From the NCBI GenBank assembly GCA_022801925.1, contig JAAWTG010000026.1:1-36949 (forward strand): a stretch of 36,949 nt of DNA. Direction: 5' to 3'. A model generated the notes under the pieces. That model did no database searches. It was not told where the DNA came from and saw only the letters and a list, made by a program, of their open reading frames with translations. Positions 12,080-28,423 of the stretch are shown here, one piece after another (the first letter of the stretch is position 1; every line of letters begins with the position of its first letter). The stretch comes from Clostridia bacterium. GTDB lineage: Bacteria; Bacillota; Clostridia; RUG12999. The translations under genes were made by a program, and so were the position numbers.

Positions 12080-12166
12080 GCCGATGTGTCGGAACTGGCA
12101 GACGAGACAGACTCAAAATCTGTTGTCAGCAATGGCGTGTGGGTTCGAGTCCCACCATCGGCACCA
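12080..12166 (+). tRNA. tRNA-Leu, anticodon CAA
   Basis: The cloverleaf is 87 nt including encoded CCA. Acceptor arms GCCGATG and CATCGGC pair fully. The anticodon arm ACAGA-CTCAAAA-TCTGT exposes CAA, reading UUG codons. A long variable arm typical of class II tRNAs precedes the T arm, which contains GGTTCGAGTCC. It is a single-gene unit with its own promoter and terminator. Confidence 0.96.
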
Positions 12167-26204: not shown

Positions 26205-26549
26205 TTTCAGCGATACTATTTTCGCCAAAAAACGACATTTTTTTCATATTATTATTTCTAGTTTGTAAAACTATTTTTAAAACAATGGCTGAAAACAGCT
26301 TTCCATACTACTTTTTATACCGCTGTAAAATAAATTTTTCTTCCTGCCAAAATTCTACAAATTTTGCGCTCTTTTTTGGTTATACTAGTAGTTATACATA
26401 TAAACCGTCAAATTATACCAAAGAATGATGTCGGTTTTAATCGGCAAGCGACAAGGCATAAGAGAGACACTTTTTGCTCCCATGCGCAAAATGCTTCCGT
26501 GCATCGCCGCTCCGTGCAATTCCGCCAAAAAAGAAAGGAAGAACAAAAG

Positions 26550-27017
26550 ATGAAAAAATGTAGTATCCTGTTGTTGGTACTCACGCTGCTCCTGAGCGGA
26601 TGCGGCACGCCAACGCAACCAGAAACGATTCCCAGCCCGTCACCCACCATTACGCAGTCGCCGACGCCCACACCCACGCCGACTCCGACTCCTACGCCAA
26701 CCGAAAAACCGACTCCGCCACACACACAAGCGCCCACGCAGGCTCCCACTCCCAAGGTAACACAGCAGCCCGCAGCGGCGGCAAACAGCGGCAGCAGCGC
26801 GGCTTCCGGTTCGTCTGCCGGCAGCGCTTCCGGCGCAGCTGCAAACGGAAAAGCGGCACAACCTGCTTCGGAAAAACAATCCGCTACGGTCTACATCACC
26901 AAAACCGGCAGTAAATACCACCGTTCCGGCTGTCGGTACCTCAGCAAAAGCAAAATCGCCATTTCCCTGGAGGACGCTAAAGCGTCCTATGACCCGTGTT
27001 CTGTGTGCAAACCGTGA
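26550..27017 (+). CDS. Lipoprotein with Thr-Pro linker and Ada-like metal-binding C-terminus
   Basis: The 155-residue exported lipoprotein has signal peptide KKCSILLLVLTLLLSGC with lipobox LSGC, so Cys18 is the lipidated residue. A low-complexity spacer follows: (TP)n at about 38-50, then Ala/Ser/Gly-rich to about 110. The C-terminal domain (about 115-155, VYITKTGSKYHRSGCRYLS to YDPCSVCKP) has the HxxxC...CxxC pattern seen at the end of many Firmicute exported proteins and nucleases, related to the Ada zinc-binding fold. It probably holds the domain off the membrane to bind metal or a ligand; the role is unknown. Start ATG 26550 follows AAAGGAAG. The frame is open 186 bases upstream but non-coding in character. 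Confidence 0.85.
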   Translation: MKKCSILLLVLTLLLSGCGTPTQPETIPSPSPTITQSPTPTPTPTPTPTPTEKPTPPHTQAPTQAPTPKVTQQPAAAANSGSSAASGSSAGSASGAAANGKAAQPASEKQSATVYITKTGSKYHRSGCRYLSKSKIAISLEDAKASYDPCSVCKP

Positions 27018-27033
27018 TATATTCTTACATAAC

Positions 27034-27083
27034 ATAAGCAAAAGAGCGCCAAACTGCACGCGGTTTGACGCTCCTTATGCCTA
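27034..27083. terminator. Terminator after the lipoprotein gene
   Basis: GAGCG-CAAAC arms (about 27047-27057) pair with GTTTG-CGCTC (about 27063-27073), extended by ATAAG/CTTAT. The hairpin fits intrinsic termination, although the T-run is short. Confidence 0.6.
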
Positions 27084-27141
27084 AGGGTGGTCGAAACAGC
27101 CACCCTTACTTCTTATGTGTTGTCCTTTCATAGCCAAAAGC

Positions 27142-27410
27142 CGCCGGAACCTGTCACGAGGGGGACTTCAGAGACTGTAAACCAGTCTCATGTCCCCCTC
27201 GTGGACTCCCCCTAGTTCGGGACGCAAGTTCGCATAAAGCCCGCATTTTATGCGGGCTTTCCGTCCCGCAAAGTGCAAAAAGTCAGGCACATGTCCTGAC
27301 TTTTTGCGTATTTTATGGAAGGGGTAACCCCCTTCCCAACCCCAGTTCTAGCATACCGCCCAGTTTTGTCTACAGTCTGATCCGCCGGAACCTGTCCGGC
27401 GGCTGATTTT
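27142..27410. repeat. Array of five successive hairpins bounded by a 15-bp direct repeat
   Basis: CCGCCGGAACCTGTC occurs near 27141-27155 and again at 27382-27396. Between and including the right copy are five stems. H1: CACGAGGGGGAC/GTCCCCCTCGTG (27155-27203) with inner GAGACT/AGTCTC. H2: CGGGACG/CGTCCCG enclosing AAAGCCCGCAT/ATGCGGGCTTT (27218-27268). H3: GCAAAAAGTCAGG/CCTGACTTTTTGC (27275-27307). H4: GGAAGGGG/CCCCTTCC (27317-27336). H5: CCGCCGGA/TCCGGCGG (27382-27402, then T-run). No protein-coding potential is seen between 27084 and 27521. Confidence 0.75.
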
Positions 27411-27440
27411 TTGAAATGTGAAACATCAAACCCTGCTCTG

Positions 27441-27476
27441 CCTAGGCAAACAAAAATCGAATCTCTTATGCCTAGG
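27441..27476. repeat. Dispersed stem-loop family R1, copy E6
   Basis: CCTAGGCA (27441-27448) pairs with TGCCTAGG (27469-27476). The left arm continues as in E1/E2 (AACAAAA) and the right arm as in E5 (CTTATGCC), so it looks like a hybrid of two subtypes. The loop contains ATCGAAT. Confidence 0.65.
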
Positions 27477-27521
27477 CGCGGAACGGTTTCACAACCGCTC
27501 CTACTGTACCTTTTCGGCAAA

Positions 27522-28154
27522 TTATTTTGTGCCAAACAAACGGTCGCCCGCGTCGCCCAGACCCGGCACGATATATCCGTGGTCGTTGAGTTTTTCGTCC
27601 ACCGCGCCGCAATAGAGCGGCACATCGGGATGGCTGCCCGTGAGTTGTTCAATCCCCTGTTTGGACGCTAAAATACACATAAACCGAATATGTTTGCAGC
27701 CTTTATCTTTCAAGAATTGAATCGCCGCGCTGCCGCTGCCGCCTGTTGCCAGCATGGGGTCTAATACAATGATTTCCCGTTCCTGAATATCCACCGGCAG
27801 CTTGCAGTAATATTCCACAGGTTCCAGCGTTTCCGGGTCGCGATACAGTCCCACATGTCCGACTTTTGCCGCCGGCACTAAACTCAGCATACCATCTACC
27901 ATGCCCAGCCCTGCCCGCAATATGGGTACAATCGCCAGTTTCTTTCCCGAAATGACATTTGTTTTTGCAATGCCGACCGGCGTTTCAATTTCCACCTGCT
28001 TCAGCGGCAAATTGCGCGTCACTTCATAGCCCATCAGCAGCGCAACCTCGCTCGTCAGTTCACGAAATTCCTTCACGCCCGTTGTTGCCGCACGCATCAT
28101 GGAAATTTTGTGTTGAATCAGCGGGTGATCCATAATCATTACATTGTTTGCCAT
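27522..28154 (-). CDS. upp: Uracil phosphoribosyltransferase
   Basis: The 210-residue cytosolic pyrimidine-salvage enzyme makes UMP + PPi from uracil and PRPP. The sequence shows the N-terminal [13 protein letters not shown], the [13 protein letters not shown] block near 75-87, the PRPP loop [15 protein letters not shown] (about 128-142) and the C-terminal uracil-binding [13 protein letters not shown]. It has the usual length. I start at ATG 28154 because AAAGAGGG lies 9 bases upstream; the ATG 9 bases earlier touches that site. It is monocistronic, with a small membrane-protein gene about 100 bases upstream. No PyrR-type leader was recognised. Confidence 0.97.
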
Positions 28155-28255
28155 CGTTCCCATCCCTCTTTCTGTTTCTTTTTTCTTCGGTGTTGCCCGA
28201 TTTTTTATTTGTCCATTCGCTTTCGTGTTCCCAATATATATTCTAAGCTAAATAT

Positions 28256-28423
28256 TTATTTGTCCTTTCTGCTCCGGCAGTACCCAAAACATATGATAGT
28301 CCATAAACCGGGAATAGCTGCGTATCCTGCATTTACTTCCCCATGATTTACAGTCACATATGCACCTCCAATAAATGTGAGTATTAAAGATATTATCCCA
28401 AAAATCAATACTGCTTTTTTCAT
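28256..28423 (-). CDS. Small membrane protein
   Basis: The 55-residue protein has two hydrophobic segments, AVLIFGIISLILTFIGGAYV (4-23) and AAIPGLWTIICFGYC (about 35-49), and a basic tail SRKDK, consistent with a two-helix hairpin with its C-terminus inside. No family is recognised. GGGGGATA lies upstream of ATG 28423; an in-frame ATG 15 bases earlier has no site. It lies between upp and rpiB, leftward like both. The 28424-28582 stretch before it holds nothing notable. Confidence 0.6.
   Translation of the reverse strand: MKKAVLIFGIISLILTFIGGAYVTVNHGEVNAGYAAIPGLWTIICFGYCRSRKDK

Follow-up and report, generated by a model that had tools for sequence, protein, structure and literature searches.

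The window, meaning here the whole analysed stretch of 36,949 nucleotides from a Clostridia bacterium, contains two convergent genes, an ORF on the plus strand (26364–27017), whose listed start may lie too far 5', and a minus-strand gene (27522–28163) with a product that we take, from its sequence alone, to be a uracil phosphoribosyltransferase (upp), both of which are syntenic in the sister species G001. The 3' end of upp faces an inserted non-coding element of 226 bp (27156–27381), whose structural model lies on the minus strand, co-directional with upp, and which leaves no room for a transposase gene. The five hairpins that the first-pass annotation had described here are all present with perfect arms. 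On the minus strand these comprise P3 (27155–27203), with an outer stem of 12 bp (27155–27166/27192–27203, arms CACGAGGGGGAC/GTCCCCCTCGTG) and an inner stem of 7 bp (27171–27177/27183–27189); P2 (27218–27268), with an outer stem of 7 bp (27218–27224/27262–27268), an inner stem of 11 bp (27236–27246/27250–27260) and an unpaired 3' side, TATGCGAACTTG; P1 (27275–27307), with a 13-bp stem (27275–27287/27295–27307) and the loop motif GGACATGTGCC; and H5 (27317–27336), an 8-bp hairpin GGAAGGGG/CCCCTTCC (27317–27324/27329–27336) that stands between P1 and the terminal repeat and is common to the window element and the copies in G041; the last hairpin, of 8 bp, lies at 27382–27389/27395–27402. The 15-bp direct repeat reported with them, CCGCCGGAACCTGTC, is likewise present (27141–27155 and 27382–27396), although it starts one base further left than had been given. 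The two copies, neither of which has a strand assigned, are the left and right target duplications and consist of the 5' arm and loop of a terminator, which survives intact on the plus strand as the palindrome CCGCCGGAACCTGTCCGGCGG with its CTGATTTTTT tail (27382–27412) and serves the plus-strand gene; hairpin 27382–27402 with the T tail was identified as an intrinsic terminator by pattern scan. The element also displays a terminal inverted repeat, AGACTGTAGACAAAAC (27363–27378, minus strand), the first 14 bases of which are identical to the end of an IS1182-family element at locus L254.

Folding of 27130–27420 gave −130.6 kcal/mol for the plus strand versus −80.9 ± 4.9 for shuffled sequences (z −10.1) and −140.3 for the minus strand (z −8.4), none of 200 shuffles folded as well, and the hairpin array is beyond chance. 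An Rfam search over the window at the gathering score found no family at the hairpins, in line with the earlier statement that no known ncRNA family fits, its sole match in the whole window being a tRNA at 12080; permissive thresholds gave only weak matches at chance level. A separate short dispersed repeat, TGCCTAGGCAAACAAAAATCGAATCTCTTATGCCTAGGC, was observed at 27439–27480, with partial matches at more than 10 places in the window genome (G000) and others in G001; it looks like a second small insertion, since the orthologous upp site of G001 is without it.

When G001 was searched with window positions 26350–28400, both flanks were found together on one contig (C23) and the inner part elsewhere (C26). 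The site on C23 (L059/L137) is empty, the uninterrupted palindrome CCGCCGGAAACTGTCCGGCGG lying between the same two genes in a sequence that reads AAAAGCCGCCGGAAACTGTCCGGCGGCTGATTTTT, and relative to it the window is longer by 226 bases, which lie between the two copies of CCGCCGGAACCTGTC. The element copy on C26 (L010) is 97% identical and stands just past the apparent end of a gene that we presume to be groEL. A 226-bp mobile element has jumped into the terminator palindrome CCGCCGGAACCTGTCCGGCGG and copied half of it. The first-pass annotation had proposed that a four-hairpin element inserted into CCGCCGGA-ACCTG-TCCGGCGG and duplicated half of this palindrome, and the single palindrome between the same genes of G001, together with the nearly identical copy elsewhere in that genome, bears the proposal out; the uninterrupted palindrome that it suggested seeking in a close relative is thereby found, and its suggested search for the element elsewhere in the genome returned dispersed copies in G000. 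As the five bases that close the left duplication, CTGTC, agree with the beginning of the terminal repeat as well, the true target duplication may measure 10–15 bp. The other end of the window copy is degenerate and keeps only CTGTC of the repeat, while the copy at L010 reads CTGTCAACAAA, CTGTCAACAAACTGTCACGAGG there; to judge from these sequences, this end of the window copy may have arisen by loss of 11 bp between direct repeats, or the target may have supplied CTGTC. Matching ends were observed in the G041 and Agathobaculum desmolans copies, and several G000 copies are without the terminal-repeat motif.

Window-type copies are located at intrinsic terminators, which were repeatedly observed to be duplicated in half or in whole. 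Orthologous empty sites revealed duplications of 15 bp for the window, 13 bp for L005 and 31 bp for L007, each of them half or all of a terminator hairpin; at L011 in G002, a full 29-bp terminator stands on both sides, and some empty sites in this more distant genome show no clean duplication. The copies of A. desmolans have exact flanking duplications of 12, 13, 24, 29 and 33 bp, again terminator halves or wholes, which brings the overall range of window-type duplications to 12–33 bp, all or half of a hairpin. The end ACTGTCGAAAAA had 48 matches in A. desmolans versus 1 for the reversed control, and the 50-nt stretches just outside it contained a stem without mismatches, 8 bp or longer, in 19 of 29 cases versus 5.7% at random (17 of 27 once two stretches reading into the element's own hairpin were dropped). 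One more window-type end, in G000 where contig C94 terminates, lies directly against a hairpin whose arms are AACGC/GCGTT.

The element is one member of a large family of mobile elements that share a conserved folded core and are found in gut Clostridia. Copies related to the window region occur at several places in the genome with 77–86% identity, and the loop motif GGACAYRYGCC is found 45 times in G000 versus 8 times when reversed as a control, in most cases with complementary arms around it that vary in sequence and with another hairpin after it; the P1 loop motif GGACATGTGCC is conserved family-wide while the stem varies. A covariance model of the P1-P2-P3 core (R1), built from 14 B-type copies with the window element left out, matches the window element at 27155–27309 on the minus strand (84 bits, E 3.4e-21). 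Among the matches listed, R1 recorded about 58 in G000, about 54 in G001 and about 26 in G002, approximate counts in which some matches are weak or partial. The copies are probably undercounted in the draft assembly, because several G000 contigs end in or near them, namely C94 (at its end, 125186–125207), C96, C69 and C18. R1 had no match in the other genera of the window's family, and among 148 sampled genomes of the class it matched five of other families (G017, G026, G041, G042 and G081). A pattern scan of named genomes for the P1 hairpin AAAAGTCAGGACATGYGCCTGACTTTT located it chiefly in Agathobaculum, above all in A. desmolans ATCC 43058, and also in Butyricicoccus and Saccharibacteria; most of the Clostridia loci so found were then recognised by the covariance model as members of the family. 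The Saccharibacteria contigs (L141, L149, L151, L155, L156, L172 and L174) carry the P1 hairpin AAAAGTCAGGACATGYGCCTGACTTTT alone, often shortly past a stop codon, as if it were a terminator. Blastn matched no plasmid or phage record, the P1 pattern did not occur in the viral contigs searched, and the literature on terminator-targeting MITEs, Agathobaculum repeats and IS1182 offered no name for the family, only the precedents of IS1272 and MITEs.

The IS1182 transposase family NF033551 was located at 30 loci in 291 genomes of the class, five of which (L253, L254, L258, L259 and L267, with L258 a more complex, tandem case) have readable ends and a terminator-like palindrome on both sides. At L254, AGACTGTAGACAAAGT stands at both ends, inside duplicated terminator copies AAAGAGACCATTTATGGTCTCTT, and the terminal repeat AGACTGTAGACAAA equals one end of the window element in 14 of 14 bases; L253 has the matching ends ACTGTTGACAAAG/ACTGTAGACAAAG with a terminator on each side, L259 likewise has matching ends between terminators, and the end CAGACTGTCGAAAAAC of L267 matches the A. 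desmolans ends. Such ends are not present in all IS1182 loci. Of two IS1182 elements in A. butyriciproducens, the one at L247 has ends, GACTGTCGCAC, unlike the A. desmolans repeat and the one at L250 has a related end, CTGTTGACAAAGT. No NF033551 transposase was found in the draft assemblies of G000, G001, G002 and A. desmolans; it may have been missed in the genus, since draft contigs tend to break near copies, or may have been lost. The lack of a cognate transposase is no bar to a MITE remnant in a draft genome, and the IS1182 assignment is provisional. The P1-P2-P3 core was found in none of the autonomous IS1182 loci examined, and its origin as a simple deletion relic of an IS1182 element was rejected for that reason.

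B-type copies have the core in common with window-type copies and lack this terminal repeat. One of them, G000:C94:29259–29421 (L073), inserted at another type of target: it is bounded by an 18-bp duplication, CTGTATTTATTGTATCAT, and the site is cleanly empty in the two sister species. Several more stand next to sequence similar to TATTATACCAT, which on the opposite strand looks like a −10 promoter box. Judged by these sequences, the core moves in two or more kinds of element, because the B-type copies are without the terminal repeat and one of them has its 18-bp duplication at a different site. Long nested modules between P2 and P3 were observed in some B-type copies, such as L047 (1500–1950), L050, L026 and L101, where the motifs AAGAAAAGTAAGAGGAGGAG and GGGGGACATTTTC are repeated within successive complementary arms. 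Several B-type copies, at G000:C85:8660, C49:8320, C87:1439 and C55:54314 (L084, L085, L086 and L077), lie directly past the ends of genes whose C-terminus (..DLFDVTLDELLGR..) we take to be that of an XRE-type regulator.

Strong covariation was observed in the stems of the core. Pairing holds for 99.1% of cells in the alignment of B-type copies (A1), where both sides have changed in 22 of 39 pairs and 0 of 500 shuffles came as high on either measure. In the alignment of window-type copies (A2) the figures are 98.4% and 18 of 58 pairs, covariation beyond every shuffle and every slid version. Because relatedness alone can lift sequences above shuffles, it is the number of double changes that counts most. 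The inner stem of P2 alone has 7 of 11 pairs changed on both sides. On the modelled strand (the minus strand of the window), G-U cells exceed A-C cells by 29:4 in A1 (p 1.1e-5) and by 24:2 in A2, or by 14:4 and 13:2 as pair types, all counts and the p value being taken without phylogenetic correction. This asymmetry favours RNA, or single-stranded DNA of the modelled strand, because no strand difference would be expected of a palindrome maintained solely as double-stranded DNA. The structured-RNA reading that the first-pass annotation had offered as its other possibility gains partial support in this way, from the covarying stems and from G-U far above A-C on the minus strand. All 10 window-type copies that could be scored have their nearest upstream gene on the strand of the core, a count that includes orthologous insertions and represents about eight or nine independent ones; the orientation could come from target polarity alone, and Agathobaculum and B-type copies show no orientation bias.

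The inserted element parts the minus-strand terminator hairpin from its original T tail, and on that ground transcription of upp can be expected to read through into the element, in the direction of the model. P1 is GC-rich and terminator-like, with A5/T5 flanks (scored on the plus strand). Because the stems covary, one strand tolerates G-U but not A-C and every scorable window-type copy lies in sense downstream of a gene, we infer, at somewhat short of even chances, that the core works as a 3'-UTR RNA, where it would most simply give the disrupted gene a new terminator or new 3'-end hairpins; by bringing its own 3'-end hairpins, the element would limit the harm of its insertion. P1-P2-P3 may also, though this is less likely than not, constitute a new structured RNA class and as such be the unit that is conserved: two or more kinds of mobile element would carry it, one with IS1182-like ends at terminators and the B-type with other ends and targets, host genes would transcribe it in their 3'-UTRs, and a function such as termination, RNA stability or transposition control would select for its fold across Clostridia.

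The likeliest identity of the window element, which we hold with good confidence, is a non-autonomous, MITE-like element of a terminator-targeting IS1182 subgroup, with a core that may be a 3'-UTR RNA. Mobilisation of a MITE by some other DDE transposase family that the genus still possesses would accommodate the failure to find an IS1182 transposase there, and the search covered one DDE family; the terminal repeat and the terminator duplication are nonetheless found together in IS1182-family elements of the same class, and this explanation is improbable. The variable length of the duplications, the strand-specific tolerance of G-U and the CTGTC microhomology between target and element end would also suit a bacterial SINE-like retroelement, whose folded RNA is reverse-transcribed into nicked target DNA. 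However, the ends of window-type copies agree with the terminal repeats of IS1182, whose elements duplicate terminators too, while no A tail was seen and RVT_1 matches numbered none in G041, which carries copies, and one in G000; mobilisation by reverse transcriptase was dropped once the terminal repeats matched IS1182 and is considered highly improbable. Hairpin-rich, strand-specific structure is likewise a property expected of IS200/IS605- or REP-type elements, which a Y1 transposase moves as single-stranded hairpins, but these are not known to make a target duplication, and with duplications of 12–33 bp seen in window-type copies such an element has, for those copies, very little to recommend it. 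A stationary structured RNA or regulatory element with a coincidental 15-bp repeat would agree with the strong covariation and the strand asymmetry; the empty orthologous site in G001 rules it out for the window copy, and with the dispersed copies and repeated duplications it is the least credible account of the locus.

For the favoured MITE-like element of the IS1182 subgroup, mobilisation in trans by an IS1182-type transposase is most likely on sequence grounds, and we infer that such an enzyme moved the window copy. The transposase would recognise the terminal repeat (C)AGACTGT[C/A/T]GA[A/C]AAA, and would cut one strand at the foot of the terminator hairpin and the other within or beyond the hairpin, and gap repair would then duplicate half or all of it; cuts staggered across the hairpin at these presumed positions would explain the variable duplication length. 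HEARO and IscB omega RNA, as well as other mobile-element RNAs, are structured RNAs with many copies without an ORF, and the window family is comparable in placing a putative structured RNA in a mobile element with many ORF-less copies; unlike them, the window element has no Rfam match at the gathering score, and it has a target duplication and IS1182-like ends. With the IS1182 family it shares a target that is a stem-loop structure and not a sequence, as in IS1272 (PMC5678879), and some Clostridia IS1182 members have the same terminal repeat and lie between two terminator copies. IS1182 elements differ in having a transposase and, in the loci examined, no P1-P2-P3 core, and IS1272 replaces the stem-loop without duplication (PMC5678879), whereas window-type elements duplicate half or all of it. 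Prokaryotic MITEs, such as QMITE2, BOX, RUP and SPRITE, are similarly short, non-coding, dispersed, intergenic and flanked by duplications, with transcripts that are predicted to fold and, for SPRITE, a terminator-like character (PMC10969869); the window family is unlike them in that its variable duplication is the terminator itself, and in that its covarying three-hairpin core spans bacterial families and elements with different ends.

The family provides a natural data set for structure-directed transposition, in which terminators are duplicated whole or in half and empty sites are available. In the published model of IS1272, joining at the 5' foot (pathway b) predicts duplication of the whole stem-loop (PMC5678879), and the window-type outcome corresponds to this pathway, whereas IS1272 itself shows stem-loop replacement. 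Cultured A. desmolans ATCC 43058 carries the family in quantity, which makes these ideas testable. Insertion into terminators represents a way to land beside genes without breaking them, and, should the core function as RNA, RNA databases would gain a new family and hundreds of gut Clostridia genes would possess a mobile, structured 3'-UTR.
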